Part shown: one piece after another, positions 42,506 to 60,012 of the stretch
How the letters are laid out: each line of letters begins with the position of its first letter
Numbering within the stretch: the first letter of the stretch is position 1
From: a virus
Reading direction: 5' to 3' (one strand)
Length of the DNA: 64,000 bases
Virus record (IMG/VR): IMGVR_UViG_3300047548_000652
Coordinates: 1-64,000 of that record
Program-made: the position numbers and the translations under genes
The notes under the pieces: model-generated
What the model was told of the DNA's origin: nothing
What the model saw: only the letters and a program-made list of their open reading frames with translations
The model's database searches: none

Positions 42506-42522
42506 TCTCTCACATTCAAATC

Positions 42523-42551: not shown

Positions 42552-42554
42552 GTG

Positions 42555-42875: not shown

Positions 42876-42881
42876 GAATAC

Positions 42882-42909
42882 ATATTAGCATACCCATACC
42901 CGGAAGCAA
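42882..42909 (-). promoter_or_regulatory. Early promoter of GIY-YIG gene
   Basis: TTGCTT, 16 bases ending TGC, TAATAT. Weaker -35 than the other early promoters. Confidence 0.6.
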
Positions 42910-43281: not shown

Positions 43282-43319
43282 GGCGTATTATTTTACTTAC
43301 CTCTTTCTATGTGGTTGCT

Positions 43320-43751: not shown

Positions 43752-43763
43752 TTCTCTCTCACT

Positions 43764-44615: not shown

Positions 44616-44629
44616 TTATGTAATCTTTC

Positions 44630-44998: not shown

Positions 44999-44999
44999 T

Positions 45000-46205: not shown

Positions 46206-46437
46206 ATTCTGTCCAGCCTATATCATCTTCCATATTGGATGCAGCATCCCATGCCTCATCCAGCGATTCATACACAACACTTGTAGCATAGACTTCCACG
46301 ATTGTCAATATGTTTGGTGTCCAGGTTTTATCTGCAACATTATATTCTTCAAAGATAGCAGTCACATTTTGCATATGTGCTATGCGAAATTGTGGACCCT
46401 TGGTTTGTAAAACATAAACACCATTATCTGCCGACAT
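46114..46437 (-). CDS. Conserved small phage protein (MSADNGVYVL type)
   Basis: 107 residues. MSADNGVYVLQTKGPQFRIAH and the centre IVEVYATSVVYESLDEAWDAA are typical of a common small phage protein of unknown function. GAGGA lies 8 bases upstream of the ATG. Confidence 0.8.
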   Translation of the reverse strand: MSADNGVYVLQTKGPQFRIAHMQNVTAIFEEYNVADKTWTPNILTIVEVYATSVVYESLDEAWDAASNMEDDIGWTEYGTNLITDFKEYSFSDFEKEYEEIKKSKSG

Positions 46438-46462
46438 ATTTCTTTTCCTCTTACTGTTTATT

Positions 46463-46573
46463 ATCTGCTGCTTGCATATCTTTCAACCAAGACTTCCACA
46501 CATCTTTTCCCTTTGCCTTACCGAACTTATTTTGAAGGCGAATCTTTTGACGGTTTGAATCCAACTTTGTCAT
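46463..46573 (-). CDS. 36-residue basic peptide gene
   Basis: MTKLDSNRQKIRLQNKFGK ... ends RYASSR. The ATG overlaps the upstream stop as ATGA, which supports translation, but the frame is short and no family is known. Confidence 0.45.
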
Positions 46574-46821
46574 TTATCATTATCTCCTACTCTTGATTTT
46601 AGTGCCTTTAGAATAAAATCTTTCTTGTCTACTCCATCAGGTATTTCCAGGCAATCACCCAAAACAACATCAGTTGATGTTGCTACTTGTGTTAGTTCAT
46701 TATATAGTGTTGTGCCCTTTGCTCGGCACTCGTGAAAATTCTGGTATGCACTTGGATCAACATATACTTCACAAGTAAAGTTCAAGGTGCTACATAGAAT
46801 AAAACCTGCTGTAAAACTCAT
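46570..46821 (-). CDS. Small Cys-containing protein
   Basis: 83 residues with a weakly hydrophobic start (MSFTAGFILCSTLNFTCEVYVD) and four Cys; possibly periplasmic. AGGGA precedes the ATG. Unknown function. Confidence 0.6.
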   Translation of the reverse strand: MSFTAGFILCSTLNFTCEVYVDPSAYQNFHECRAKGTTLYNELTQVATSTDVVLGDCLEIPDGVDKKDFILKALKSRVGDNDK

Positions 46822-46832
46822 ATTTCTAATCC

Positions 46833-47084
46833 CTATGAATAACTGATACTCCTGATTGAGTCCAGCCTAAATGATCGCCAATTATTATTATCTATATCCC
46901 ATACAACAAGCACATCCTCATTTTCCTTTTTGGATGATTCTGTGATGTATTCTGGTAGATAATCTTCCAGTAGCGTGCATCGCATCTGTCTTAGGCTACC
47001 ATCAGATTTCTCAAACACAACAGTCATAATATGGCTTTGAAGATTGCTCTTTAGACTTTCTTGTTCTAACATAACTTCAGTCAT
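46833..47084 (-). CDS. WYL_2-like SH3-barrel protein (paralogue 1)
   Basis: 83 residues. VVFEKSDGSLRQMRCTL ... WDIDNNNWRSFRLDSIRSISYS matches the WYL_2 (Sm-like SH3 barrel) pattern and the paralogue at 58489-58758. Probably binds nucleic acid or nucleotides, but no function is established. Confidence 0.75.
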   Translation of the reverse strand: MTEVMLEQESLKSNLQSHIMTVVFEKSDGSLRQMRCTLLEDYLPEYITESSKKENEDVLVVWDIDNNNWRSFRLDSIRSISYS

Positions 47085-47087
47085 TTT

Positions 47088-47339
47088 TTATCGTCCCCTG
47101 TTATTTTCTAGGATAGCCTCAATAACATCTTTGTGTTGGTCTATTATATGGAAAGTGTAATCTTCCATTAGATACGCACAACATAATCCAATAATCAAAA
47201 TATTTATGTCAGTGATTACTCCCAAGGCATAAAAAAGTGTGCCAATAACTCCAAGTATATACACGAAGTTTATTGTAAAGAATATTGTTGCCATTAGATA
47301 TATAATGGTTTTGCCATTTTCTTCAATGAACTTTTTCAT
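47088..47339 (-). CDS. Small membrane protein with two helices
   Basis: 83 residues from ATG 47339 (MKKFIEENGKTIIYLMATIFF). Two hydrophobic segments span about 13-40 and 43-60. GGAG lies ten bases upstream within the end of glutaredoxin. Unknown role at the host membrane. Confidence 0.7.
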   Translation of the reverse strand: MKKFIEENGKTIIYLMATIFFTINFVYILGVIGTLFYALGVITDINILIIGLCCAYLMEDYTFHIIDQHKDVIEAILENNRGR

Positions 47340-47340
47340 T

Positions 47341-47586
47341 TTAGGCAATCTCCAAATATACTCTTAGGTCTTCATATCCACCAATACGAATACCATCAAA
47401 TCTAAAAATCTGTGGTACTGTTGGTTTGATATCTGGTCCTAATATAGCACAAAGGTCTTCCTTTGTAAAGTCCTCATTGAATATTTTTTCTACATATTGA
47501 ATATGTAGGTTTTCAAGGATTGCCTTGGCTTTATCACACCAAGGGCAATCTGGTTTAGAGTATATTATCATTTTCATACTATTCAT
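47341..47586 (-). CDS. Glutaredoxin
   Basis: 81 residues with the CPWC active site (Cys14, Cys17) in IIYSKPDCPWCDKAKA and the TVPQIFRFDGIRIGGYEDL glutathione-binding part. A likely electron donor for ribonucleotide reductase. Its first residues MNSMK are not typical of glutaredoxin; they come from the QV start cassette (ATGAATAG overlap with the preceding QV gene). The native start is probably the internal MKMIIYSK or MIIYSK. Confidence 0.88.
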   Translation of the reverse strand: MNSMKMIIYSKPDCPWCDKAKAILENLHIQYVEKIFNEDFTKEDLCAILGPDIKPTVPQIFRFDGIRIGGYEDLRVYLEIA

Positions 47587-47923
47587 TCATTTGATCCCTA
47601 ACTTCATCCCTAGCTTTATGGTAGACTTGATCCCTGACTTGATCCTCGACTTGAGACATGACTTGATCCAAGACTCGATCCCAGACTTGAATCCCAACAC
47701 GATCCCAGGTTTGATTACAGAGTTGATCCCTGATTTGGTCCCATAATTGAAACCTGACTTGATCCCTGATTTGGTCCCATAATTGAAACCTGACTTGATC
47801 CCAGACTTCACCTTCAACTTGGCTTTCAACTTGAAACCTGACTTGACCATCGGCTTCATTCCAGACTCGATCAAAGACTTGATCAAAAACTTTAGGTGCA
47901 ACTTGATCTTTCATACTATTCAT
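47579..47923 (-). CDS. QV-repeat mini-protein, long member
   Basis: 114 residues, almost twice the family norm. Opens MNSMKDQVAP, ends VRDQMNE. A tandem 36-bp duplication (VRFQLWDQIRDQ twice) and a 72-bp block identical to one in the gene at 48113-48295 explain the extra length. Last QV gene before glutaredoxin, overlapping it by 8 bases. Confidence 0.8.
   Translation of the reverse strand: MNSMKDQVAPKVFDQVFDRVWNEADGQVRFQVESQVEGEVWDQVRFQLWDQIRDQVRFQLWDQIRDQLCNQTWDRVGIQVWDRVLDQVMSQVEDQVRDQVYHKARDEVRDQMNE
47662..47733 (-). repeat. 72-bp block shared by two QV genes, copy 1
   Basis: Identical base for base to 48202-48273, exactly 540 bp away, although the flanking QV repeats differ. Indicates recent recombination or gene conversion. 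Confidence 0.92.
47723..47794 (-). repeat. 36-bp perfect tandem duplication in a QV gene
   Basis: Two copies, 47723-47758 and 47759-47794, each encoding 12 residues (three four-residue units) in frame. Confidence 0.95.
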
Positions 47924-48116
47924 TTATTTGGTACCTGACTTGATTTCTGACACAATCATAGATTTGATCGTGGATTCGATTCCTAACTTGAATACTAATT
48001 TCAGTATTGACTTGTTGATGGACCTGATCCCAGGCTTGATCACTAACTTTATCCCCAACTTGATCCCAGACTTGATTATAGACTTGAGTGTCTATTCGTT
48101 TTTTCATACTATTCAT
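47916..48116 (-). CDS. QV-repeat mini-protein
   Basis: 66 residues. Opens MNSMKKRIDT, ends RYQINE. ATGAATAG overlap with the gene downstream and ATGA overlap with the one upstream. Contains an off-repeat NTEISIQ segment. Confidence 0.78.
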   Translation of the reverse strand: MNSMKKRIDTQVYNQVWDQVGDKVSDQAWDQVHQQVNTEISIQVRNRIHDQIYDCVRNQVRYQINE

Positions 48117-48295
48117 TTAGTTTCATCCCGAACTTGATCTTGGACTGGAACTAAGGCTTGAGGACATATTTGATTTCTCACTTGAACAGTGAGTTCCCAA
48201 CCTTGATCCAAGACTCGATCCCAGACTTGAATCCCAACACGATCCCAGGTTTGATTACAGAGTTGATCCCTGACTTTGTGTTTCACACTATTCAT
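48113..48295 (-). CDS. QV-repeat mini-protein
   Basis: 60 residues. Opens MNSVKHKVRD, ends VRDETK with an ATGA junction. Its middle (LCNQTWDRVGIQVWDRVLDQ) is the 72-bp block shared with 47579-47923, followed by a divergent GWELTVQ segment. Confidence 0.78.
   Translation of the reverse strand: MNSVKHKVRDQLCNQTWDRVGIQVWDRVLDQGWELTVQVRNQICPQALVPVQDQVRDETK
48202..48273 (-). repeat. 72-bp block shared by two QV genes, copy 2
   Basis: Partner of 47662-47733. Confidence 0.92.
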
Positions 48296-48476
48296 TTAGT
48301 TGATCCTTCATTTGAGACCTAACTTGATCTCCAACTTGAACCCATACCTGATCATCAACTGGAGTCCAGATATATGTATCAACCTGAGACATTACACGAA
48401 GATAAACATGATCTCTGATTTGATCCTCAATCTCATTCCAGATGTCAGCATCAATTCGTCTATCCACACTATTCAT
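48288..48476 (-). CDS. QV-repeat mini-protein after the phosphoesterase
   Basis: 62 residues. Opens MNSVDRRIDA, ends KDQLNE. Starts four bases after the phosphoesterase stop, with GAGG supplied by that gene's last codons (GAG GTT TGA). More acidic start than its neighbours. Confidence 0.78.
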   Translation of the reverse strand: MNSVDRRIDADIWNEIEDQIRDHVYLRVMSQVDTYIWTPVDDQVWVQVGDQVRSQMKDQLNE

Positions 48477-48480
48477 TTTA

Positions 48481-49296
48481 TCAAACCTCAAAATAAGTAT
48501 CAGGGTTGAAGTGCGTTGCTATGCTTTCATACCCTTCATAACCACGAGCATTAGATACAAGTGTGGTTTCACCAATCTCAAACTTTGACTGAATGTGAGT
48601 ATGACCAAACACCCAATACTTTACCTGTGGTCTATCCATAATGAACTCATCAAGGGCACTCGCATAACCAGCATCAAGGTGATTACCACCGTGATAAGGA
48701 TTGATTCCTTTGTATGTGGGTGAATGATGTGTTACCACCACACAGTTCTTGTGCTTGTTTGCTTCCAGTTCTGTTGTTAGAAACTCCATTGTCTTTGTGT
48801 GCTTTTCATAGGCGTGCTTTGTAAAAAACCTATCCTTGCCGATTTCAATGTAATGAAAATCATTCATACCAGCACCAACAGCCCGATGTGCCAATGGATC
48901 GTCTTTATTCATATCAGTCCATAGAGTGCCACCAAGCACAACTGTACTATCATCCAAATGATATGACGAATCATTCAGGTGAATTACACCCGGCAGATAC
49001 TTCTCAATATACTCTGCTTCAAGGTTGATGTCAAACCCATATGACTCGTGGTTGCCAGTCACATAGAACACTCGCTTGAAGTTTTCACGGACGATATTGA
49101 AAAATGTTAGGGTGCGATCCCGTAGTTTTCTGTTCCGGGCATCAGTCATCCTTGGATTTAGTGCCCTCAACAAAGTGATGTCGCCAGCCAAAATGAGATT
49201 GTCACCAGAGATTGCCATAAATCTTGGTGAAGCAAAAAATCTTGGTGAAGCAAACTCAATGTGTAGGTCAGACATATAATAGAACTTGTGTGTCAT
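48481..49296 (-). CDS. Calcineurin-like metallophosphoesterase
   Basis: 271 residues. Metal motifs in order: SDLHIE (Asp10, His12), LAGDIT, GNHESYG, THHSP and GHTH. An 18-bp tandem duplication after SDLHIE gives FASPRFFASPRF. Embedded between QV genes: its ATG overlaps the stop of the upstream QV gene as ATGA. Substrate unknown (nucleic acid or nucleotide). Confidence 0.9.
   Translation of the reverse strand: MTHKFYYMSDLHIEFASPRFFASPRFMAISGDNLILAGDITLLRALNPRMTDARNRKLRDRTLTFFNIVRENFKRVFYVTGNHESYGFDINLEAEYIEKYLPGVIHLNDSSYHLDDSTVVLGGTLWTDMNKDDPLAHRAVGAGMNDFHYIEIGKDRFFTKHAYEKHTKTMEFLTTELEANKHKNCVVVTHHSPTYKGINPYHGGNHLDAGYASALDEFIMDRPQVKYWVFGHTHIQSKFEIGETTLVSNARGYEGYESIATHFNPDTYFEV
49219..49254 (-). 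repeat. 18-bp tandem duplication in phosphoesterase gene
   Basis: Two perfect copies of aaatcttggtgaagcaaa, adding six residues next to the first metal motif. Confidence 0.95.
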
Positions 49297-49478
49297 TTTG
49301 TTTCATCCCAGACTTGAATATAGACTTGATCATGGACTTGATCGCTGACTTGATCCCAGACTCGACCCATGATTTGATCCCTGACTTGTTCATGGACTTG
49401 ATCACTGACTTGATTCCAGACTTGTTCATGGACTTGACGCCGGACTTGATCACTGACTTGTTTTTTCACACTATTCAT
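49293..49478 (-). CDS. QV-repeat mini-protein
   Basis: 61 residues. Opens MNSVKKQVSD, ends VWDETK. Its TGA overlaps the phosphoesterase ATG, and GGGATG in the WDE codons is the phosphoesterase Shine-Dalgarno sequence. Confidence 0.8.
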   Translation of the reverse strand: MNSVKKQVSDQVRRQVHEQVWNQVSDQVHEQVRDQIMGRVWDQVSDQVHDQVYIQVWDETK

Positions 49479-49674
49479 TTAGTTGATCCCATACTTGATT
49501 TCTAACTTGAGCCCAAACATGATCCCTGACTTGAACCTCGACTTGATCGCTGATTTGGTCCCAGATTTGATTTCTAATTTGTTCCCAGTCTTGAGACCAG
49601 ACTTGATGATAAACACGAGAGGTTCTCAGTTCAGCCCAAGGTTGATCCCAGATATGTTGTTTCAAACTATTCAT
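49471..49674 (-). CDS. QV-repeat mini-protein
   Basis: 67 residues. Opens MNSLKQHIWD, ends VWDQLNE. An off-repeat stretch PWAELRTSRVYH interrupts the pattern near the N-terminus. Confidence 0.8.
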   Translation of the reverse strand: MNSLKQHIWDQPWAELRTSRVYHQVWSQDWEQIRNQIWDQISDQVEVQVRDHVWAQVRNQVWDQLNE

Positions 49675-49843
49675 CTATTTGATCCCAACCTTGATCTCTA
49701 ACTTGAAACCAAACCTGTTGATAAACTTGATTACTGGCTTGATTGCTGGTTTGAACCATAACTTGAATACAGACTTGAGATTTGATTTGTTCATAAACGT
49801 GATCCCAAATCTTAGTTTTAGCTATCTGTCTCACACTATTCAT
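49667..49843 (-). CDS. QV-repeat mini-protein
   Basis: 58 residues. Opens MNSVRQIAKT, ends GWDQIDE. Found by following the junctions: 8-base overlap downstream, ATGA overlap upstream. Confidence 0.78.
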   Translation of the reverse strand: MNSVRQIAKTKIWDHVYEQIKSQVCIQVMVQTSNQASNQVYQQVWFQVRDQGWDQIDE

Positions 49844-50013
49844 TTCATTTCATCCCAGAGTTGATCATCCAATTGTTCCCAGAATAGAAACCTGACTTGA
49901 GCCCAAACATGATCCCTGACTTGATCAAGGGCTTGATCCCTGACTTGATTCCAGACTTGTTCATGGACTTGATCACTGACTTGAGACCAGACTTGTTTTT
50001 TCACACTATTCAT
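49840..50013 (-). CDS. QV-repeat mini-protein
   Basis: 57 residues. Opens MNSVKKQVWS, ends QLWDEMK. ATGA junction downstream, ATGAATAG junction upstream. Confidence 0.78.
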   Translation of the reverse strand: MNSVKKQVWSQVSDQVHEQVWNQVRDQALDQVRDHVWAQVRFLFWEQLDDQLWDEMK

Positions 50014-50194
50014 CAATTTGATTCTCGACTTGAGTCCTGACTTGAGTCCTGACTTGAGCACAAACTTGTTTATCAACTTGGGTCCAGACTTGAAACCGGA
50101 CTTGATCGTAGACTTGATTACTGACTTGATTATAGACTTGACTATCAACATTAGGCCAGACGTTACTTTTGACTTTGTATTTCACACTATTCAT
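50006..50194 (-). CDS. QV-repeat mini-protein at head of an array
   Basis: 62 residues. Opens MNSVKYKVKS, ends ENQIDE. GGAG lies 8 bases before the third of three adjacent ATGs (50194), which is the family start. The leader TATGGAGATATGATGATG nearly matches that of the other array head at 52271. Confidence 0.8.
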   Translation of the reverse strand: MNSVKYKVKSNVWPNVDSQVYNQVSNQVYDQVRFQVWTQVDKQVCAQVRTQVRTQVENQIDE

Positions 50195-50216
50195 CATCAT
50201 ATCTCCATAATGAAGA

Positions 50217-50243
50217 AGGGGTCCAGTTAGACCAGACCCCCTT
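50217..50243 (-). terminator. Terminator before a QV array
   Basis: aaggggtc paired with gacccc-ctt (one bulged C) on either side of a 12-base loop, followed on the minus strand by TTCTTCATTATGG. Separates 50250-50588 from the QV array head. Confidence 0.7.
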
Positions 50244-50249
50244 TATGGT

Positions 50250-50588
50250 TTAGTCCTGCACTCGACGGAACCCCTCCGGGGTATACTCACGCTGACGCCG
50301 AACATGATAAGTTCCCTTATCAAACATAATAGGCTCGTGGGTATCGTAACTACGAAGGTGCTCAAGTGCCGTGGGATCATTCACAACGAGGAAGCAATCC
50401 ATAATGGAATCAGGCAGTGAATACATCTTCACCTTCTCTGCTTCCATAACATGGTTGTGACCCGTTTCTGAGTGAGTAACAATCAACTTACCATTTTCGG
50501 GCTTTACTTCCACAACATTTGCAGGAAGTGAGTCAACACGACGAATATACACATCGCCCTGAGCACAAGTATTTTTGAATGTTCGCAT
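50250..50588 (-). CDS. Conserved phage protein of unknown function
   Basis: 112 residues. KLIVTHSETGHNHVME, YSLPDSIMDCFLVVNDPTALEHLRS and DTHEPIMFDKGTYHVRRQREYTPEG belong to a family found across many tailed phages. AAGGAG precedes the start; own promoter. Confidence 0.85.
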   Translation of the reverse strand: MRTFKNTCAQGDVYIRRVDSLPANVVEVKPENGKLIVTHSETGHNHVMEAEKVKMYSLPDSIMDCFLVVNDPTALEHLRSYDTHEPIMFDKGTYHVRRQREYTPEGFRRVQD

Positions 50589-50621
50589 TGTATAGTCTCC
50601 TTTGGTTTTCCATTATGTCTT

Positions 50622-50650
50622 ATAGTAGCATACTATTTAGTGGAAGTCAA
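50622..50650 (-). promoter_or_regulatory. Early promoter
   Basis: TTGACT, 17 bases ending TGC, TACTAT. Drives 50250-50588 and, past the terminator, possibly the QV array at 50194. Confidence 0.87.
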
Positions 50651-50818
50651 GTATAAAGTTTCATATAGTTCATTCAAACTTTGAACCCTAACATTATAAA
50701 CAAGTTGTGCTGTATCTTCTAACATCCAATGATCAAATTTTGCTTCAATATCAACATGTTCATCAAATTCTGAATGAAATTTTGGAGTAAGATATACCTT
50801 ATTCAATCTTCCAGCCAT
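50633..50818 (-). CDS. Small protein ending the first QV array
   Basis: 61 residues (MAGRLNKVYLTPKFHSEFDEH), not a QV repeat. AGGA precedes its ATG within the last codons of the preceding gene, which it overlaps by 16 bases. Confidence 0.6.
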   Translation of the reverse strand: MAGRLNKVYLTPKFHSEFDEHVDIEAKFDHWMLEDTAQLVYNVRVQSLNELYETLYLTSTK

Positions 50819-50988
50819 CGTATATCTTCCTGTAGTTGAAATTCTACTGCGGAACGAACTTGTTCGCCCACCATTATATAGACAGGGCGTGGCACACCAC
50901 CACCTACTTGATCGGCAACTTCCTCACATACTACTTCTCCAAAAAAACCGTACAAAGTTGTATAAACCTTTTTTCTCACACTATTCAT
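50803..50988 (-). CDS. QV-family mini-protein, degenerate repeat
   Basis: 61 residues. Keeps the MNSVRKKVYT opening and the 8-base junction, but the body (LYGFFGEVVCEEVADQVGGGVPRPVY...) retains only a few QV units. Either an ancestral form or a member adapting to a new role. Confidence 0.7.
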   Translation of the reverse strand: MNSVRKKVYTTLYGFFGEVVCEEVADQVGGGVPRPVYIMVGEQVRSAVEFQLQEDIRWLED

Positions 50989-51193
50989 TGATTTGATCCC
51001 AAACTTCATCCCAGATTTGATCACCAACTTGATCATAGACTTGATCCCAGACATGAATAGTGACTCTATTCCCGATTTGATCCCAGACATGAAACCTGAC
51101 CTGATCCCTAACTTGAACCATGACTTGATCCCTAATTTGAACCTCGACCTGATACCTGACTTGATCATAGACTTGATCGAACACACTATTCAT
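50981..51193 (-). CDS. QV-repeat mini-protein
   Basis: 70 residues. Opens MNSVFDQVYD, ends VWDQINE. One of the most regular members (RDQVMVQVRDQVRFHVWDQ). Confidence 0.8.
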   Translation of the reverse strand: MNSVFDQVYDQVRYQVEVQIRDQVMVQVRDQVRFHVWDQIGNRVTIHVWDQVYDQVGDQIWDEVWDQINE

Positions 51194-51350
51194 TGATTTG
51201 ATTCCTGACTTGATGCCAGACTCGATGTACGATATGACCCCGGACATGATCACTGACCTGATTATCAACTTGAATACTGACTTGTTTCCAGAGTTGGTCT
51301 GTAACTTGAATCCAGTTTTCAGTTTGGATTTGTTCTCTCACACTATTCAT
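51186..51350 (-). CDS. QV-repeat mini-protein, shortest member
   Basis: 54 residues. Opens MNSVREQIQT, ends VRNQINE. Confidence 0.78.
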   Translation of the reverse strand: MNSVREQIQTENWIQVTDQLWKQVSIQVDNQVSDHVRGHIVHRVWHQVRNQINE

Positions 51351-51519
51351 GTAACTGATTCCAGATGTGATTTCTGACTTGATTATTGACTTGATCTCGG
51401 ACTTGACCCTTGACTTGAGTCCTGACTTGATCATAAATTTGAATACAGGCTTGATGTCTGGTTTGATTCCAAACTTGAATATAAGGTTGCTCCCAAACTT
51501 GACCTTTCACACTATTCAT
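51343..51519 (-). CDS. QV-repeat mini-protein
   Basis: 58 residues. Opens MNSVKGQVWE, ends WNQLHE; the final CATGAATAG still keeps the start cassette of the next gene. Confidence 0.78.
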   Translation of the reverse strand: MNSVKGQVWEQPYIQVWNQTRHQACIQIYDQVRTQVKGQVRDQVNNQVRNHIWNQLHE

Positions 51520-51745
51520 CAATTTGATTCCAAACTTTATCCCAAGCTTGATCCTCGACTTGATCATAAACTTGATCTTGGACTTGATATATAACTTGAA
51601 TCTTAACTTGACTCCTAACTTGATTCTCGACTTTATCCCAGACTTGTTTACCAACTTGATTCTTGATTTGCATCTCAACTTGATCGTTGACTTGGCCGAC
51701 TGGAGTATATATTTGATTCCAAATTTGTTTTTTCACACTATTCAT
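51512..51745 (-). CDS. QV-repeat mini-protein
   Basis: 77 residues. Opens MNSVKKQIWN, ends VWNQIDE. Contains YTPVGQVNDQVEMQIKNQ. Confidence 0.78.
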   Translation of the reverse strand: MNSVKKQIWNQIYTPVGQVNDQVEMQIKNQVGKQVWDKVENQVRSQVKIQVIYQVQDQVYDQVEDQAWDKVWNQIDE

Positions 51746-51933
51746 TTGATCTGATTCCATACTTCATCCCAAACTTGATTCCAGACTTGATTCTTGACTT
51801 GATAACTGTTTTTATTTTCCCAACGCTGCATGATAACGGCTTGATCCCAAGCTTCATTACTTGTTTGATTTTTGACTTGATCCCTGACCTGAATATAGAG
51901 TTGAGACCCAATTTGTTTTGCCATACTATTCAT
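51742..51933 (-). CDS. QV-repeat mini-protein
   Basis: 63 residues. Opens MNSMAKQIGS, ends EVWNQIK with an ATGA junction. Carries an off-repeat insertion AVIMQRWENKNSY. Confidence 0.75.
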   Translation of the reverse strand: MNSMAKQIGSQLYIQVRDQVKNQTSNEAWDQAVIMQRWENKNSYQVKNQVWNQVWDEVWNQIK

Positions 51934-52102
51934 CGATTTGTTCTTTGATTTGAACCATTGTTTTATGTCTAATTTGTTCCCAGAATGGATCACCAACTTT
52001 AATCCAGACTTGAGCCCTGACTTGAACCAAGATTTGATTCTCGACTTGATCCCAAACTTGATCGATGACTTGATACCTGACTTGATTTTTCACACTATTC
52101 AT
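51926..52102 (-). CDS. QV-repeat mini-protein
   Basis: 58 residues. Opens MNSVKNQVRY, ends IKEQIDE. Confidence 0.78.
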   Translation of the reverse strand: MNSVKNQVRYQVIDQVWDQVENQILVQVRAQVWIKVGDPFWEQIRHKTMVQIKEQIDE

Positions 52103-52271
52103 CGATTTGATCCAAAATTTGAGCCGTAGTTTGATATCTGGCTTGTTCACAAAATTGATCACCGAATTGAGACCAGACTTGAGACCTGATTTGAATACAT
52201 ATTTCATGTCCGGTTTGATTGCAAACTTGAACAAAGATTTGATTCCAGATTTGTTTTCTCACACTATTCAT
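52095..52271 (-). CDS. QV-repeat mini-protein at head of the longest array
   Basis: 58 residues from ATG 52271 with GGAG 8 bases upstream. Opens MNSVRKQIWN, ends LDQIDE. Cys-rich for the family (four Cys). First of eight consecutive members. Confidence 0.8.
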   Translation of the reverse strand: MNSVRKQIWNQIFVQVCNQTGHEICIQIRSQVWSQFGDQFCEQARYQTTAQILDQIDE

Positions 52272-52289
52272 AATCATATCTCCATAAAA

Positions 52290-52315
52290 GTAGAGGGGGT
52301 TTATGCCCCCTCTAC
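52290..52315 (-). terminator. Terminator before the longest QV array
   Basis: gtagaggggg / ccccctctac, 10 bp with a 6-base loop, followed by TTTTATGGAG on the minus strand. Array expression would need readthrough or an unseen promoter. Confidence 0.88.
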
Positions 52316-52329
52316 CGGCACTCCCAAGA

Positions 52330-53202
52330 TTAGGTTCGGATTTCAGGTTTCAGGAAACTATCCTTATCAAACCCAAAAGTCCAAGCATTGGCATCCAGAG
52401 CAGTCTTCATATCAGGCGGAACAGGCAACGCAAACTCTCGACCCGTACCACACATAACACGCAGGAACTTCTCCTTACCAATCTCAGGAATTTCTACCTC
52501 AAGCAGTGTACCAATTTCAGGGTCTTCATCTTCATCAAGAACCTGAGCATCAAGGGCCTTGAGAATCTTGTTCCAACCAAGGATTTCACAGGCACAACGA
52601 CGCTGTTCAATGTTTTCCCAAGTTAGAGCAATCTCAGGATTCAACTTTTCCTTGTTCTCAATCCACTCGGCAGGAATGCGAGTACCGTGCCAAGCATAGA
52701 CGCAGAAGCCATCACGGTAACGAATCGCTGGACCATCTTCACAGTGAAGTCGGTTCTGATCATCAAACTTGATGCGTTCTGGCCGATCCTGAAACACAAC
52801 CAGATCATCATAGACATTGAGCCAACCACAATGTTTGGCCAGTTCAATGAGACCATTCAACTTATTGCAGCATTCCAGACCGACCACATCACGGAAGTAG
52901 GCATAGAAGGCCAGCCAATAGGCATCGTGAGCACCATAAATCATTTCATTATAGATTTCACGCTTGGTTCGCTTTGGATCAATCTCCTGAATGATACGAA
53001 TAGCATCCATAGGACCCTTGGCCGTGAGGAACTTTGTGGGTAGAGGCAAACCAACAAGTTCATATGCCATACACACAGCATCCTTGGCCTTTTCAAAATC
53101 AACAGGTTCGGTGGATAGACCGATATCAATCCAAGTATCACGGTATTCACCAAACTTGGCCTTCTGTTCTTCAGTGAGTGCTTCAATCTTCTTAGTCGTC
53201 AT
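52330..53202 (-). CDS. DUF6745-like protein
   Basis: 290 residues from ATG 53202 (MTTKKIEALTEEQKAKF), with GAGGA upstream; an ATG at 53217 is the alternative. The core NRLHCEDGPAIRYRDGFCVYAWHGTRIPAEWI is the DUF6745 pattern seen in phages and bacteria. Unknown function; strong promoter and terminator suggest an abundant early product. Confidence 0.8.
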   Translation of the reverse strand: MTTKKIEALTEEQKAKFGEYRDTWIDIGLSTEPVDFEKAKDAVCMAYELVGLPLPTKFLTAKGPMDAIRIIQEIDPKRTKREIYNEMIYGAHDAYWLAFYAYFRDVVGLECCNKLNGLIELAKHCGWLNVYDDLVVFQDRPERIKFDDQNRLHCEDGPAIRYRDGFCVYAWHGTRIPAEWIENKEKLNPEIALTWENIEQRRCACEILGWNKILKALDAQVLDEDEDPEIGTLLEVEIPEIGKEKFLRVMCGTGREFALPVPPDMKTALDANAWTFGFDKDSFLKPEIRT

Positions 53203-53237
53203 TGTATAAGTCCTCATTGGTTTCGCATTATGTTTCT

Positions 53238-53266
53238 ACTATAGCATAGGTAAAAAGGAAAGTCAA
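53238..53266 (-). promoter_or_regulatory. Early promoter
   Basis: TTGACT, 17 bases ending TGC, TATAGT. Drives 52330-53202. Confidence 0.88.
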
Positions 53267-53275
53267 GCGTGATTT

Positions 53276-53461
53276 TTAGTCATAGATTTCATCTACAAGT
53301 CTATCTACAATTTTGTCGTGAACTTCAAAAATTTTATTTTCCAGTGGGCGTTCAATATCTCTCCACACAATATTATTAATCTTTATATCCACTTGAGATT
53401 CAATTTTAGATGCAACTTCAGCATGACCTTTATGATATATTTGTCTATCAACAGATTTCAT
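53276..53461 (-). CDS. QV-family mini-protein, diverged
   Basis: 61 residues. Opens MKSVDRQIYH and ends VDRLVDEIYD; the body has lost the strict repeat (ESQVDIKINNIVWRDI). ATGA overlap with the QV gene upstream. Last gene of its operon. Confidence 0.65.
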   Translation of the reverse strand: MKSVDRQIYHKGHAEVASKIESQVDIKINNIVWRDIERPLENKIFEVHDKIVDRLVDEIYD

Positions 53462-53631
53462 TTGGTTTCATCCCAGATTTGATCTTGGGTCAATCCGTTA
53501 ACTTGAATAGCCATTTGACCCCAGACTTGATTCTGGCATTCAGCCTGAACTTGAAATGTGGTTTGATATTCAGTTTGATCGGTGACTTGAACCATAGGTT
53601 CACTTCTGATTTGTTTTCTCACACTATTCAT
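53458..53631 (-). CDS. QV-repeat mini-protein
   Basis: 57 residues. Opens MNSVRKQIRS, ends IWDETK. ATGA overlaps on both sides. Confidence 0.77.
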   Translation of the reverse strand: MNSVRKQIRSEPMVQVTDQTEYQTTFQVQAECQNQVWGQMAIQVNGLTQDQIWDETK

Positions 53632-53801
53632 TTAGTTTCATCCCAGACTTGATTACTGACTTGAGTAATGGCTTGAGCCAAGTTTTGATCCCTGATTTGG
53701 TCCCATAATTGATCCCAGACTTGATCGCTGACTTTATCCCAAACTTGGTCACTGACTTGAATATAAACTTTATTCCAGATGTGTTTTCTCACACTATTCA
53801 T
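53628..53801 (-). CDS. QV-repeat mini-protein
   Basis: 57 residues. Opens MNSVRKHIWN, ends VWDETK. Its start overlaps the last codons (KNE-stop) of an unrelated gene by 8 bases. Confidence 0.78.
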   Translation of the reverse strand: MNSVRKHIWNKVYIQVSDQVWDKVSDQVWDQLWDQIRDQNLAQAITQVSNQVWDETK

Positions 53802-53973
53802 TTTTGTATCCAACAACATCACAAATATCCTCAATAAGATCATAGGCATTTTCAATAACCCGATCACATTGGCCTATTGTTTCAGGGCAAGATATACGCT
53901 GATTCTCAATAAACTTTTCACAAACAACCCAAAGTTTTTTGAGCCGTTCTATATCAATCTCCTGATGTGCCAT
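53794..53973 (-). CDS. Small helical protein
   Basis: 59 residues from ATG 53973 (MAHQEIDIERLKKLWVVCEK), with GGAGG upstream. Ends VVGYKNE; the last codons form the ATGAATAG start cassette of a QV gene. Unknown function. Confidence 0.65.
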   Translation of the reverse strand: MAHQEIDIERLKKLWVVCEKFIENQRISCPETIGQCDRVIENAYDLIEDICDVVGYKNE

Positions 53974-54151
53974 TCCATCCTCCGTCCTTATATACTTTAT
54001 TTCGCTCACAGGAAATCTTCATTAGTTCGTCTGCCAGAGCATCCAAGGCATTACGAACACAAAGTTCCATCTCTGTTATTTTTTCTGGCTTCAAATCCAT
54101 CCTACCGACGACACGACGAATGGCAAGTTCAACTACTTCAAAATCATTCAT
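53954..54151 (-). CDS. Small helical protein
   Basis: 65 residues (MNDFEVVELAIRRVVGRMD ... RNALDALADELMKIS). ATGA junction with the QV gene upstream and a 20-base overlap with the next gene. Unknown function. Confidence 0.65.
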   Translation of the reverse strand: MNDFEVVELAIRRVVGRMDLKPEKITEMELCVRNALDALADELMKISCERNKVYKDGGWNGTSGD

Positions 54152-54333
54152 TTGGTTTCATCCAAAAGTTGGTTACTGACTTGATTTCTGATTTGAACCC
54201 AGACTTGATCACAGACTTGAACCCAGACTTGATCCATAACTTGTTCATAGATTTGATTACTGGCTTGATTATAGACTTGATCACAGACTTGATCCCGGAC
54301 TTGATCACAGACTTGTTTGCTCAAACTATTCAT
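54148..54333 (-). CDS. QV-repeat mini-protein
   Basis: 61 residues. Opens MNSLSKQVCD, ends LLDETK. Inserted singly between two ordinary genes with overlapping junctions at both ends. Confidence 0.78.
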   Translation of the reverse strand: MNSLSKQVCDQVRDQVCDQVYNQASNQIYEQVMDQVWVQVCDQVWVQIRNQVSNQLLDETK

Positions 54334-54601
54334 TTGACTTGATCCTGTTATACAAGCGTTTCAACTTATTCAACTCTGGGTGTTTATGTATCCACATACC
54401 TGTATCTGTTTCAAACTTGGTTTGAAAAAACTTATCCAGTTTTGGATTGTCTGTTTTGATATCTGGTCTAATCTTACGAGACATTTCATCATATTTGGCA
54501 TCACTGATTATAGAATCATTCTCAAACTCATATGAGTATGCCGCAACAGAAAGAATGATCCTGTTGCGGCGTTCTATCTCTATTTCGCTTCCCCAAGACA
54601 T
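54326..54601 (-). CDS. Phage protein resembling the NAD-dependent DNA ligase Ia region
   Basis: 91 residues. AAYSYEFENDSIISDAKYDEMSRKI recalls the Ia domain of NAD-dependent ligases (AYY...ISDAEYD), present here without the catalytic domain, as in other phages. Ends KSNE, forming the start cassette of the QV gene downstream. Confidence 0.65.
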   Translation of the reverse strand: MSWGSEIEIERRNRIILSVAAYSYEFENDSIISDAKYDEMSRKIRPDIKTDNPKLDKFFQTKFETDTGMWIHKHPELNKLKRLYNRIKSNE

Positions 54602-54873
54602 TAGAAGTCATCATCCAATGGTTTTGGTTCTACTGTTTCGCCCTTATATGATTCAGCAAGTGCCTTTTTTGCCATCTTCATATGATCGTCTCGCTGCCAC
54701 TGAACCTTATCGTGGGATAGTTCAACATAATCATTTGCGATGTAGCGAAGTGTTGCCCGAAGTCGTTCAATCTCATCATTGGCTGATTCAAGTTCCATTT
54801 TTTTATCACAATATGCTTGCCACAGCATAAGTTGTGATTCTTGGGCAATATCTTCTATTGATTTGTTAGTCAT
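54601..54873 (-). CDS. Coiled-coil phage protein
   Basis: 90 residues from ATG 54873 (MTNKSIEDIAQESQLMLW), with AGGA upstream. Coiled-coil core MELESANDEIERLRATLRYI. TAATG junction with the next gene. Confidence 0.65.
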   Translation of the reverse strand: MTNKSIEDIAQESQLMLWQAYCDKKMELESANDEIERLRATLRYIANDYVELSHDKVQWQRDDHMKMAKKALAESYKGETVEPKPLDDDF

Positions 54874-55115
54874 TGTCCCATCCTTTCGGGGGAAGAAATC
54901 CAACCAAGTTCTGTTATGCGTTCTTTTAGTTTTTCATTTTCAGCACGCAAGCGTTCAATCTCATCAATGGCATCATAGACACATTTTGCTTCTGTATAGG
55001 CACCCGTTATATCGCTGCACTCTGCGTATGCTTTCAGCCGTTCAACAACATCAGTCACTATAGACCTACCTACATTTGTGCCGGACATAATAAGATTCAA
55101 TGGACCTTTTTTCAT
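54870..55115 (-). CDS. Coiled-coil phage protein
   Basis: 81 residues. AIDEIERLRAENEKLKERITEL is a clear coiled coil and shares EIERLRA with the gene downstream, suggesting an old duplication. ATGA junctions on both sides. Confidence 0.65.
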   Translation of the reverse strand: MKKGPLNLIMSGTNVGRSIVTDVVERLKAYAECSDITGAYTEAKCVYDAIDEIERLRAENEKLKERITELGWISSPERMGQ

Positions 55116-55336
55116 ATCACACTTTCCTTTGAGCCGTAAGCCTCATTGATATTTGCTAATATATCATTGATTTGCTGCTTTGTCAAGCCCGTATATTTTT
55201 TACCATCATACCCATTTTTGTAAAGGGTGTATGTACCATAATCTTCCTTGATGATCAAAAAGTCCATCAAATAGATGGTACTTGAATGAAGTTCTTCAAA
55301 ACGATCTCGGTCAATGATCATCATATTATTCAACAT
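55112..55336 (-). CDS. Small phage protein of unknown function
   Basis: 74 residues (MLNNMMIIDRDRFEELHSS ... YTGLTKQQINDILANIN). GGAAAG precedes the ATG. Confidence 0.6.
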   Translation of the reverse strand: MLNNMMIIDRDRFEELHSSTIYLMDFLIIKEDYGTYTLYKNGYDGKKYTGLTKQQINDILANINEAYGSKESVI

Positions 55337-55337
55337 A

Positions 55338-55718
55338 TCACACTTTCCTTCCCAGGGATTCTACATCAGCACCATCGGTTATGTATTGGTAACTGCCCTT
55401 GTTGCAAATTGGGGCAATCTTTTTCTTCTTGCGTTCTGTCTCGGCAATCACTTCTTCACTTTCATTGCGACCAGACTTCCACTTGTAGTCATCAATACTA
55501 CGCTTGAAGCCATTACCAGGGATGCTGTTAGAAATAGGGGCAACATTTTTGTTCTCCACTTTTAATGATTGAAACTCAACACAAGACTTTTTGTTAGGTC
55601 CAGTATAGCCCACTGACCGTAGAAAAGCAAGATGTTTCTTTTGTGCTTCTGTTTGTACTTTAGTCTTAGGCTGCTTTTTTTTCTTGGGTGGGCGGTTGCT
55701 TACATAAAATATGGCCAT
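55338..55718 (-). CDS. Conserved phage protein of unknown function
   Basis: 126 residues, basic N-terminus (RPPKKKKQPKTKVQTEAQKKH). APISNSIPGNGFKRSIDDYKWKSG and IAPICNKGSYQYITDG form a pattern shared by many phages. GGGAG seven bases upstream. First gene of an eleven-gene operon that ends in three QV-family genes. Confidence 0.75.
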   Translation of the reverse strand: MAIFYVSNRPPKKKKQPKTKVQTEAQKKHLAFLRSVGYTGPNKKSCVEFQSLKVENKNVAPISNSIPGNGFKRSIDDYKWKSGRNESEEVIAETERKKKKIAPICNKGSYQYITDGADVESLGRKV

Positions 55719-55750
55719 AACGGCACTCCCATTTTTGGGTCACTAAATTT

Positions 55751-55779
55751 ATAGTACTACAATATACCGCAGAAGTCAA
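55751..55779 (-). promoter_or_regulatory. Early promoter
   Basis: TTGACT, 17-base spacer, TACTAT. Reads the operon 55718-53276. Confidence 0.85.
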
Positions 55780-55791
55780 GCTCGTATGTTA

Positions 55792-55799
55792 TATAAATA
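55792..55799 (+). promoter_or_regulatory. T4-type late promoter, plus strand
   Basis: TATAAATA, 65 bases upstream of the homing endonuclease ATG. The only plus-strand copy noticed. Confidence 0.7.
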
Positions 55800-55863
55800 A
55801 CAATGTGGTTCACGAGATTGCCGTCTCCAACCACTCTAACACCTTACGAGGAGGTACCAGCAT
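55800..55863 (+). promoter_or_regulatory. Structured leader with strong ribosome-binding site
   Basis: GTGGTT/AACCAC with an inner GAGA/TCTC pair forms a hairpin, followed by AGGAGG nine bases before the ATG. Late promoter plus leader hairpin is the arrangement known for the T4 intron nuclease I-TevI. Confidence 0.55.
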
Positions 55864-56457
55864 ATGTCTATTTATACCCCATCATTAGAATATTATGTTT
55901 ATGCTTATCTAGGAATAGATGGCAAGCCTTATTATATTGGCAAAGGTAAAGGTTATAGGGCTTGGAGCAAACATAAGAAAATTATAGTTCCCGAGGACAG
56001 GAAAAGGATTGTCATTTGCGAATCTAATCTAACGGAAGTTGGTGCGTTTGCTTTGGAAAGAAGGCTTATTCGTTGGTATGGTAGAAAAAATAATGGCACA
56101 GGAATATTGAGAAATATGACTGATGGTGGAGAGGGTTTATCTGGTTTAGTATTTACTGAAGAATTAAGAATAAAAATTAGTGAAAGAACATCTGGTGAAA
56201 ACCATCATCTCTTTGGTAAGAAGCATAGCGAAGAAACAAAAGAGAAAATAAGACAATCCAGACTAGGTAAAAAACATAGCGAAGAATCTAAACAAAAAAT
56301 GAGTGAAGAAAGAAAAGGTATAAATAACCCCTTCTTTGGTAAGAAACATAGTGATGAAGTTAAACAAATAGTAAGTCTAACAAATAAGAACAAAGTTAGA
56401 ACAGAAGAAACAAAAAGAAAAATCAGTATGACAAAAAAGGCTATGCGGCAATTTTAG
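55864..56457 (+). CDS. GIY-YIG homing endonuclease with NUMOD3 repeats
   Basis: 197 residues. Catalytic domain YYVYAYLGIDGKPYYIGKG ... EVGAFALERRLIRWYGR with Arg and Glu of the family; the C-terminal half has NUMOD3-type DNA-binding motifs (HHLFGKKHSEETKEKIRQSRLG and three more). On the opposite strand to all its neighbours, with its own late promoter. Free-standing mobile gene. Confidence 0.92.
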   Translation: MSIYTPSLEYYVYAYLGIDGKPYYIGKGKGYRAWSKHKKIIVPEDRKRIVICESNLTEVGAFALERRLIRWYGRKNNGTGILRNMTDGGEGLSGLVFTEELRIKISERTSGENHHLFGKKHSEETKEKIRQSRLGKKHSEESKQKMSEERKGINNPFFGKKHSDEVKQIVSLTNKNKVRTEETKRKISMTKKAMRQF

Positions 56458-56683
56458 ATTGCTCTTGCAATATGCATTTCCAAGTTTGGGTTTTTTCATC
56501 CCATCTATAATTCAACTGTATCCATTCTACAAGTTGCTTATTATTAAGATTTCTAAAATCATAATTATTATCTCTTTTTATATTGAGATAAAAGGAAATA
56601 CAGATGCCTAACAACTTCTGTTGGTCAAGTAACAAAAATCTATGGATGGCTTCATCCATAGATACAGCATTCGTGTTTTCCAA
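56441..56683 (-). CDS. Small phage protein, possible TTG start
   Basis: 80 residues if it starts at TTG 56683 (MENTNAVSMDEAIHRF); ATG 56659 is an alternative. C-terminal LVEWIQLNYRWDEKTQTW. Its 3' end overlaps the convergent endonuclease gene by 17 bases. A TATAAATA lies upstream at 56717-56724. Confidence 0.6.
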   Translation of the reverse strand: MENTNAVSMDEAIHRFLLLDQQKLLGICISFYLNIKRDNNYDFRNLNNKQLVEWIQLNYRWDEKTQTWKCILQEQSKIAA

Positions 56684-56716
56684 TTCAAGTAGACCCCCAA
56701 TGAGTTGTTGAGAATG

Positions 56717-56724
56717 TATTTATA
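56717..56724 (-). promoter_or_regulatory. T4-type late promoter
   Basis: TATAAATA on the minus strand, 34-41 bp upstream of the 56441-56683 gene and just after the stop of the preceding gene. Confidence 0.6.
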
Positions 56725-56728
56725 ATAC

Positions 56729-56851
56729 TTACCCGTTATAGGTTCCTAATGAAATTGTGCCGATGTATTTCCACTCACCATCAATATATTGCTCAAGTAT
56801 CGTTCCACCAAAATAATCTGTGTTGATTCTTACTTCCATTTCTTTTGGCAT
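56729..56851 (-). CDS. 40-residue protein
   Basis: MPKEMEVRINTDYFGGTI ... IGTISLGTYNG. Compact beta-like peptide immediately downstream of 56855-57193 with a 3-base gap. Function unknown. Confidence 0.6.
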   Translation of the reverse strand: MPKEMEVRINTDYFGGTILEQYIDGEWKYIGTISLGTYNG

Positions 56852-56854
56852 ATT

Positions 56855-57193
56855 TCATCTTTCAAACTTCTTTTTCAGCCGTTCGTATTCAGCCCGTTCT
56901 TTTTCTTCAGCAATTTTCTTATCTGCTTTTTTCTTGGACATTTCTTCATTCAGCATCTTCAATCTTTTATTATATTCCTTATCAGTCTCAATCCTATCAC
57001 CTAACAAATAAAGCCGTTCTACATCTTCATATCGTAATAGAATCATATCCAATCGTAAATTTTTATAACCGTTTTCAGTATAAATTTTGGAAAGATTTGA
57101 TAACATTTCTATTGCTTCATTCAAAGCATAACTATGCAAGTCTATATGAATAAGTTGATCTGTCACATAAATTTTTTCTATTGTTTTCATCAT
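56855..57193 (-). CDS. Coiled-coil protein of unknown function
   Basis: 112 residues. N-terminal half alpha/beta (KIYVTDQLIHIDLHSYALNEAIEML), C-terminal half a charged coiled coil (EEMSKKKADKKIAEEKERAEY). ATGA junction with the upstream gene; the second codon is also ATG. Confidence 0.65.
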   Translation of the reverse strand: MMKTIEKIYVTDQLIHIDLHSYALNEAIEMLSNLSKIYTENGYKNLRLDMILLRYEDVERLYLLGDRIETDKEYNKRLKMLNEEMSKKKADKKIAEEKERAEYERLKKKFER

Positions 57194-57327
57194 CTACAAA
57201 TCTCACCCACAAACTTGTTGTCTTCACACACAAGACCATCTTCTATGTTATAGACTGAATATAGCATACAGCCGATAACAAGGCAAGAGATAATCGCCAT
57301 ATAGATTGTGAAAAATTTCTGTGTCAT
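57190..57327 (-). CDS. 45-residue membrane protein
   Basis: MTQKFFTIYMAIISCLVIGC gives one membrane helix; the short tail has two more Cys (VCEDNKFVGEICR). ATGA overlaps on both sides. A weak internal promoter (TTGCCT, 17, TATATT at 57258-57286) may serve the next gene. Confidence 0.65.
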   Translation of the reverse strand: MTQKFFTIYMAIISCLVIGCMLYSVYNIEDGLVCEDNKFVGEICR

Positions 57328-57638
57328 GCCTTGAACCATACATCATTTGTATATGTGACTACATTTTCACTACCATCGTATTCTTCAATACGGAACATTG
57401 TGCTTTCTGGCAACCATTCAATAGTAATTTGTTCAATACCCCCAACATATGTATCTGGGTATCGTTCTTCTGCCAGAGCATATAGATCACGTTCATTCAT
57501 ACCATTCAATACTGCCTCAACAATCACAGGATCAAAAAGCATTTCTGGTTGTGCGGTATTCCAAGAATACCAACCAGCACCATATCCGGGTGAATAGAGC
57601 ACTGCCACCATTCCGTCTTTACGATATTTGGGATACAT
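57324..57638 (-). CDS. Conserved phage protein of unknown function
   Basis: 104 residues from ATG 57638 (MYPKYRKDGMVAVLYSPGYGAGWYSWN), with AAGGAG upstream. LFDPVIVEAVLNG and YVGGIEQITIEWLPESTMFRIEEYDG are typical of a widely shared phage family. Confidence 0.8.
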   Translation of the reverse strand: MYPKYRKDGMVAVLYSPGYGAGWYSWNTAQPEMLFDPVIVEAVLNGMNERDLYALAEERYPDTYVGGIEQITIEWLPESTMFRIEEYDGSENVVTYTNDVWFKA

Positions 57639-57664
57639 TTTTGTCTCCTTAGTTGAAAGCATGT

Positions 57665-57859
57665 TTACCATTTGCTCTTTTCAAGTACAGCACTTCCATC
57701 ACAATAACCACACCGAACGGCTTTTGGTCCCGAAGATGCTTCAAAAAACATATCTTGTCTCCTTGGAACGTAACCATAGCCGTAACAGAACGGACATGAT
57801 ACTTGATTGTCTTTGGGCACTCGTGGTGAACCTGAAAGTAGATAATGGCTGTTCGTCAT
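57665..57859 (-). CDS. Small zinc-finger protein (DnaJ-type CxxCxGxG)
   Basis: 64 residues from ATG 57859 (MTNSHYLLSGSPRV). VSCPFCYGYGYVPRR and VRCGYCDGSAV give two CxxC pairs in the DnaJ zinc-domain style. Possibly nucleic-acid or protein binding. Confidence 0.7.
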   Translation of the reverse strand: MTNSHYLLSGSPRVPKDNQVSCPFCYGYGYVPRRQDMFFEASSGPKAVRCGYCDGSAVLEKSKW

Positions 57860-57866
57860 ATTGTTA

Positions 57867-58070
57867 TCACCCGAAAGCATTGTAGTAGGAACTCTCATCT
57901 TCATATTGTGAATACTTGTGATCTATCACAAGTCGTCCAGTGATTTCTTCAATCTCGGTTTGAAAATCCACAACAGTCATACGAGAACAATCACAGATAG
58001 GCAAAGCACCATATGCAAGACGATATGTTTCAAGGTAAAGAGCCATCCAAAGATCACGCTTGCTGTTCAT
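57867..58070 (-). CDS. Small protein after a QV gene
   Basis: 67 residues from ATG 58070 (MNSKRDLWMALYLETYRL), overlapping the QV stop as ATGA. Like glutaredoxin it begins MNS, so its N-terminus may be partly the QV start cassette. Unknown function. Confidence 0.65.
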   Translation of the reverse strand: MNSKRDLWMALYLETYRLAYGALPICDCSRMTVVDFQTEIEEITGRLVIDHKYSQYEDESSYYNAFG

Positions 58071-58252
58071 TTGATTTCCTCCCATACTTGAGCATAGATT
58101 TGTCTCCAAACCTCATCATAAACCTCATCCACGATTTGAGACCTGACTTGATTATTGACTTGATTGTTGACTTGAGACCAGCCTTGAGCCCAGACTTGAT
58201 CCCTGACTTGTTCCATAACTTGGTCCCAGACTTGATTGCTCACACTATTCAT
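58067..58252 (-). CDS. QV-repeat mini-protein
   Basis: 61 residues. Opens MNSVSNQVWD, ends VWEEIK. ATGAATAG junction upstream, ATGA downstream. Lies about 4 kb from the nearest other cluster. Confidence 0.78.
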   Translation of the reverse strand: MNSVSNQVWDQVMEQVRDQVWAQGWSQVNNQVNNQVRSQIVDEVYDEVWRQIYAQVWEEIK

Positions 58253-58427
58253 TTTCAATATCCAGGTTATCATAGATTTGATCAAGTATCACACCGTGGA
58301 GATTATCATAGTCAATGGGTGATTCAAAGCACAAAGAAGTCCATAGATTAGCACTAACATATTTTATCAAATGATCAAATGTATCTTGTGTGGCTTTATT
58401 AGAGACTTTACGATTCAGGCTTTTCAT
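58245..58427 (-). CDS. QV-family mini-protein, diverged
   Basis: 60 residues from ATG 58427. Opens MKSLNRKVSN and ends LDIENE; the body is mixed rather than repetitive but the terminal ATGAATAG junction is kept. Directly follows a terminator. Confidence 0.6.
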   Translation of the reverse strand: MKSLNRKVSNKATQDTFDHLIKYVSANLWTSLCFESPIDYDNLHGVILDQIYDNLDIENE

Positions 58428-59610: not shown

Positions 59611-60012
59611 TTAGAGTTTTATATGCGACCTATGTATTCTCACATAGATTTGATCGTTGTAAAAGTTTTCTGATTCAAGGGCATTGTGAAGTATTTGTTC
59701 TTTCAACTCCAGATAACTACAAGTTCCTTTGGTCTTACACAAGTGTAGAATCTCACGACGAAAGCAAGTCACACCAAACTGTTTTACATCTTCTTTGAGA
59801 AGATTGTTTGAACCATAGTAGTTCTGCCAATCGGATTGCTTTGTCACTTTCTTACGGCGTGTCTTACCCTTGACCTTTTTGGTTCTGGTAAAAGAGAATA
59901 GTTTCTTACCTATGTATTTCTTTTTTGTGAAGATGTTTTCTATGAGATAGACAAAGCCGACATAACCTTCAGCCTGTTCTTCCTTGAACTCCTCACCCTG
60001 ATACATCCACAT
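59611..60012 (-). CDS. Seg-like GIY-YIG putative endonuclease
   Basis: 133 residues. GFVYLIENIFTKKKYIGKKLF carries a GIY-YIG-like pair; KVTKQSDWQNYYGSNNLLKEDVKQFG and FRREILHLCKTKGTCSYLELKEQI are typical of Seg-like phage nucleases. Possibly mobile. Confidence 0.75.
   Translation of the reverse strand: MWMYQGEEFKEEQAEGYVGFVYLIENIFTKKKYIGKKLFSFTRTKKVKGKTRRKKVTKQSDWQNYYGSNNLLKEDVKQFGVTCFRREILHLCKTKGTCSYLELKEQILHNALESENFYNDQIYVRIHRSHIKL

Follow-up and report, generated by a model that had tools for sequence, protein, structure and literature searches.

Arrays of QV mini-genes in a T4-like virus share their repeat with the internal block of DUF6745 proteins

Introduction

Short genes lying head to tail, each consisting of little more than a four-residue repeat, raise the question of whether they encode proteins at all and, if so, to what these proteins are related. 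We addressed this question for the first 64 kb (hereafter, the window) of the 156,381-bp virus record IMGVR_UViG_3300047548_000652, a T4-like myovirus according to the gene content of the window (gp32-type single-stranded DNA-binding protein, RNase H, RNA ligase and baseplate genes). Between 38.3 and 58.4 kb the window carries 20 clear and 4 diverged QV mini-genes, all of them on the minus strand. The clear members (n = 20) start with MNS(V/M/L) and code for 54–77 aa (114 aa in one case), and their products are built of the four-residue unit D/N-Q-V-x. This inventory, together with the arrangement in runs of 8, 5, 4 and 3, had been proposed in an earlier reading of the DNA made without database searches (the sequence-only reading), and both the open reading frames (ORFs) and a profile search confirm it. 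The profile built from the members matched 23 places in the 156,381-bp record, all located within 38346–58252 (E about 1e-6 to 3e-25), and found no member outside this interval.

The repeat of the mini-genes inside DUF6745 proteins

Apart from the mini-genes, QV repeats were found within single ORFs, and these ORFs code for DUF6745 proteins, in which a block of up to about 80 units follows the N-terminal domain and precedes the GQHDAxWLAFY core. The mini-proteins share with the DUF6745 proteins of both viruses and bacteria this block of period 4, Q-V/I/L-x-[D/N/A/S], read in the same frame. Judging by these sequences, the mini-genes are a free version of the DUF6745 internal block, a relationship which, judged against the libraries and open-access papers searched, we report here as new.

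The window has a DUF6745 gene of its own, located between the runs of 8 and 3 (122.8 bits at a Pfam gathering cut-off of 27), and no other copy was found in the 156-kb record. No tetrapeptide block is present in its product, where the alignment shows a non-repetitive linker of about 20 residues. DUF6745 was found in 34 of 49 virus records with arrays versus 2 of 42 control records (p 6e-11), and both hits among the controls (L040, L107) were DUF6745 proteins with the internal block.

Searches of Pfam, PHROGs, NCBIfam and PADLOC with the mini-proteins gave only weak low-complexity matches. Two candidates were rejected: DUF4816 of Pfam (best score 19.3 bits, cut-off 29.4) and Cas2 (11–17 bits on low-complexity stretches). 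PHROG 5189 and 33514, both of unknown function, matched single mini-proteins weakly (E 1e-6 to 1e-1), with low-complexity similarity below a convincing level. The PDB sequence search matched neither the QV rod nor the DUF6745 core, and a fold search with the DUF6745 model found no solved relative. Rfam gave no match, and BFVD returned only DUF6745-type or unnamed viral proteins. Among cultured phages, tblastn with the mini-proteins retrieved a single convincing record, prophiGD102-1, and the protein matched was DUF6745. In the open-access papers searched the repeat motifs and DUF6745 are unmentioned, and STM4011-4015 appear only in passing. The interpretation given in the sequence-only reading is partly supported. 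It named no family for these proteins and overlooked the link to DUF6745, whose internal block is the repeat and whose gene lies inside the array. Its description of the mini-genes as probably an undescribed system is supported; the families of Pfam, PHROG, NCBIfam, PADLOC, PDB and Rfam do not account for them.

Cis and trans arrangements

DUF6745 genes either carry the block inside (cis) or lack it, in which case free QV mini-genes often form arrays next to them (trans). Mini-genes were present at none of 65 cis loci, 23 of which had at least 1 kb of flanking sequence on each side. Since these 65 loci came from a QV-pattern search, a second sample of 80 loci was chosen by the DUF6745 core alone. 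It comprised 10 cis loci, none with mini-genes, and 70 loci without the block, 37 of which had QV mini-genes. The block-less DUF6745 gene is usually located 0–100 bp from a mini-gene. A cis label for L525 and one L333 copy was ruled out, because the upstream mini-gene lies in another frame. The core-domain tree requires at least five cis/trans changes, and trans as a single clade is rejected (approximately unbiased test, p 5.7e-10); the split was therefore repeated, or repeatedly reversed.

The cis form is exemplified by gp38 of the Mycobacterium prophage prophiGD102-1, phage record MW202476 and Nocardia farcinica plasmid 3. Their QVx[D/N/A/S] repeat (with QL and SSL variants) occupies the site of the short linker of the window DUF6745, and the conserved partner gene is likewise found in the prophage, where it adjoins DUF6745. 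The difference is that they have one block inside one protein, whereas the window has about 24 separate coupled genes and a DUF6745 without the block. Rods of other composition also occur, both beside DUF6745, as DRVx and DQLx mini-genes (L525, L519), and inside it, as SSLx and DQLx blocks (L527, L002).

The partner gene

The partner protein has a GHxH motif and a C-terminal RRQREYTPEGFRR. Its gene was found in 71 of 80 viral loci with DUF6745 compared to 4 of 205 loci without it, and lies upstream of DUF6745 in Microcystis phage LMM01, in the Mycobacterium prophage and in Deinococcus and Streptomyces plasmids. In these plasmids (L528, L529) the pair adjoins the uncharacterised STM4011-STM4015 genes (radical SAM, hydrolase and others). 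The Deinococcus version has the C-terminal part of DUF6745 fused to leucine-rich repeats (recognised by eye) and not to QV repeats. This protein of the Deinococcus sp. QL22 plasmid resembles the window system in having the partner gene and in attaching the C-terminal part of DUF6745 to a scaffold of repeats; it differs in that the scaffold is leucine-rich and in cis, that mini-genes are missing and that the context is bacterial. The pair of Ma-LMM01, gp174/gp175, goes unmentioned in the text of the transcriptome paper on this phage.

Reading frame, coupling and variation

Every member has a proper start and stop in the QV frame. Among 328 mini-genes from many loci, stops interrupt frame +1 in 199 and frame +2 in 286; for the three antisense frames the numbers are 120, 325 and 303. 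The QV frame is the one in which the block is fused within DUF6745. The claim that these are real protein-coding genes is supported, and they are presumably translated.

Within runs, QV starts overlap the upstream stop exactly, by 4 nt (ATGA) or 8 nt (ATGAATAG), and the junction ATGAATAGTRTG occurs 22 times with 0–1 mismatch versus 1.3 expected by shuffling. A GGAG Shine-Dalgarno sequence precedes two run leaders (52271 and 50194). Across 105 loci, 125 of 154 adjacent mini-gene pairs have a stop/start overlap, and the median length is 64 aa. The non-QV genes of the chain (glutaredoxin, metallophosphoesterase and small genes) share these junctions, so that the mini-genes appear to belong to a coupled operon. 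Three of the non-QV genes (47341–47586, 48481–49296 and 57867–58070) look inserted into the chain, and two of them bear a QV-type start (MNSM, MNSK).

Codon usage in the repeat varies by genome: glutamine is CAA or CAG, valine is mostly GTC, with GTT or GTA in some genomes, and within one genome the choice is often nearly fixed. Since QV persists across genomes despite this variation, it is the amino acid pattern that is kept and not the DNA unit. Comparison of dN/dS between members, suggested in the sequence-only reading as a check on coding, revealed neither equality nor purifying selection: the ratio of non-synonymous to synonymous changes (pN/pS) was 2.1 in the QV frame, as measured on 15 equal-length pairs, mostly paralogues, and lowest in frame +1 (0.47). 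With few diverged orthologues of equal length this ratio is not a clean test of selection. Most of the changes fall on bases 1–2 of the two variable codons, and within an array the codons for Q and V are almost constant; this pattern fits unit shuffling and/or diversification. We do not claim positive selection, because repeat shuffling blurs pN/pS and the ratio is lower in frame +1. Tryptophan, arginine and glycine residues showed neither positional order nor autocorrelation along the rod.

Distribution and turnover of the arrays

DNA-pattern scans, which set a lower bound on prevalence, returned at least 120 stretches in each of three IMG/VR scans and at least 117 in GTDB genomes. At least 81 loci (separate loci within one contig being counted individually) hold a minimum of two QV mini-ORFs, the largest array having 12 head to tail; their GC content is 33–56%. 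The caps are fixed and specific to each genome (MNSV, MKSV, MPINNQ, MTLENK, MTPIKDQ, MSIKDQ and others).

Three closely related phages with about 97–99% identity over 7–9 kb (L451, L454, L455) differ in their sets of whole mini-genes and in chimeric ones, and the frame is intact in every case. Two mini-genes of L455 are each retained in a single relative, one in L451 and one in L454, and the mini-gene of the L454 type is chimeric, sharing segments with its neighbour. Recombination between units and genes therefore adds, deletes and mixes modules while the frame is kept. The nearest relative of the window DUF6745 (L141/L449, 82% core identity) has mini-genes capped MKSV...HEISS on both strands. 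Given so close a core with other caps, array turnover seems to be faster than that of the core.

Silent-cassette or donor arrays and diversity-generating systems consist of tandem variant modules altered by recombination, and the QV arrays resemble them in this respect. They differ in that each module here is a complete coupled gene. Neither a cassette-receiving expression locus nor a reverse transcriptase was noticed, although no specific search for them was made.

Proposed function and alternatives

We consider it probable, with some reservation, that the mini-genes encode stand-alone helical modules, i.e., detached and amplified DUF6745 rods which act in trans together with DUF6745 and the partner protein. 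Each mini-gene would give one rod of about 60 residues, probably alpha-helical, with V (or I/L) at every fourth position, fixed caps at the N- and C-terminal ends and variable residues between them (two of every four vary). The window DUF6745 has no rod of its own, and the coupled mini-genes around it and its partner may supply rods in trans. These could dock on DUF6745, or on one another, as interchangeable interaction modules; the phage would therefore have a complex with many alternative rods and not one built-in rod. Recombination between the 12-bp units and between whole mini-genes adds, removes and reshuffles the modules. Its purpose may be diversification, and the modules may have a role during infection. 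In the simplest account the rod is an interaction module, either built into DUF6745 or recruited by it; the trans form would allow one core to pair with many alternative rods, and the variability may serve recognition. More tentatively, we speculate that the locus could represent an undescribed system with a two-protein core (DUF6745 and the GHxH partner), whose target-contacting repeat was repeatedly detached into a fast-recombining coupled library of about 10–24 helical rods serving as many alternative binders.

A helix with valine at every fourth residue had been suggested in the sequence-only reading. AlphaFold2 (AF2) models one window mini-protein as a single helix over residues 2–76 (predicted local distance difference test, pLDDT, 92; predicted template modelling score 0.45), so the helix is plausible as a prediction. 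Several observations weigh against our interpretation. Single-helix models of repeats are readily over-confident, and in the AF2 model of the cis protein L362 the QV block is a helix of low confidence (39–58), while the core exceeds 90. A canonical coiled coil is not recognisable, the hydrophobic period being 4 and neither heptad nor hendecad. QV mini-genes are missing within 6 kb at 33 of the 70 block-less DUF6745 loci, though mini-genes of the QL or RV type occur at some of these (L519, L525) and non-repetitive coupled ones at L507. The array loci were mostly retrieved with a QV pattern, and counts and p-values are inflated by the many loci that stem from contig fragments or near-duplicate phages. 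At L507 (3741–4104 and 6757–7289), mini-genes of about 60 aa, non-repetitive and with acidic tails, flank DUF6745 and resemble the diverged members of the window; they are possibly an ancestral or decayed form of QV mini-genes.

Hypervariability at the positions separating the fixed Q and V residues (a pN/pS of 2.1 for the 15 pairs), the location of the arrays in an accessory region rich in small unknown genes and their turnover among closely related phages would also suit independent small host-takeover or counter-defence proteins diversifying for varied host targets, with DUF6745 and the partner as neighbours or as the ancestor of the repeat. We find this unlikely in view of the recurrent tight linkage to both genes and the mutual exclusion of arrays and in-cis block; PADLOC, which covers defence and not counter-defence, gave no weighty match. 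Still less likely is a selfish or neutral expansion, in which a 12-bp repeat gene budded off DUF6745 and was multiplied by slippage and unequal recombination into idle arrays. Caps, lengths and overlaps conserved in 105 loci speak against it, as do diverged non-repetitive members that retain start, length and acidic tail, and the repeated co-localisation of arrays with block-less DUF6745 in separate lineages, even though codons homogenised within arrays, variable residues without order along the rod, fast gain and loss, and a pN/pS that is not purifying are what such an expansion would leave.

A function of the 12-bp repeats at the level of DNA or RNA (as an origin, a recombination site or a regulatory RNA), with the open frame arising as a by-product, is highly improbable. 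Some genomes have further frames open across the unit, the lowest pN/pS belongs to frame +1 and the DNA is strongly homogeneous within a genome; however, QV persists though the DNA unit differs among genomes, many members have stops in alternative frames, the block is read in the same frame inside DUF6745, the arrays of one contig (L141) lie on both strands, and Rfam has no match.

If detached rods do work with DUF6745 and its partner, low-complexity ORFs become parts of a defined and widespread module of three components, which switches recurrently between a single built-in repeat and a free library, and the function of DUF6745 becomes directly testable. The arrays would also illustrate how part of a protein is split off and multiplied in nature, independently in several phage lineages, and how recombination drives the turnover of phage protein modules.

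Features of the locus

Coordinates of the mini-genes and the genes around them are given in Table 1.

Table 1. QV mini-genes and neighbouring genes in the window
Feature	Positions	Strand	Remarks
Isolated, diverged QV mini-gene	38331-38522	-	Own start MKNVEEQ...; profile E 1.3e-21
Glutaredoxin	47341-47586	-	Starts MNSMK...; final gene of its chain; PF00462, 5.6e-10; QV-type junction, 8-nt overlap
Run of 4 QV mini-genes	47579-48476	-	Overlaps 8, 4, 8 nt; profile matches
Members of the run of 4	47579-47923 (114 aa); 47916-48116; 48113-48295; 48288-48476	-	
Metallophosphoesterase	48481-49296	-	4-nt ATGA overlap with upstream QV gene
Run of 5 QV mini-genes	49293-50194	-	Profile matches, overlaps
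Partner of DUF6745	50250-50588	-	112 aa; ..QGD..HSETGHNHVM..DTHE..VRRQREYTPEGFRR; conserved with DUF6745
Diverged, mostly non-repetitive mini-gene, last of run of 8	50803-50988	-	E 7.5e-6; 8-nt overlap
Seven clear members of run of 8	50981-52271	-	Profile matches, overlaps; leader at 52271
DUF6745 protein without internal QV block	52330-53202	-	290 aa; PF20530, 1.5e-35; between run of 8 and run of 3
Diverged mini-gene (run of 3)	53276-53461	-	MKSVDRQ...; 4-nt overlap
Two clear members of run of 3	53458-53801	-	Profile matches, overlaps
Single QV mini-gene	54148-54333	-	Coupled on both sides (8- and 4-nt overlaps) to unrelated small genes
GIY-YIG-like endonuclease	55864-56457	+	Recognised by eye; within minus-strand operon
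Small non-QV gene in chain	57867-58070	-	Shares the ATGAATAG/ATGA junctions
Single QV mini-gene	58067-58252	-	Profile match
Diverged mini-gene	58245-58427	-	MKSLNRK...DIENE; 8-nt overlap with 58067-58252
GIY-YIG-like endonuclease	59611-60012	-	SegE GIY-YIG match (PF19835, 1.8e-36)

Apart from these features, units of 51/102 bp are repeated in tandem at the very beginning of the window (1–455), with 78–82% matches.

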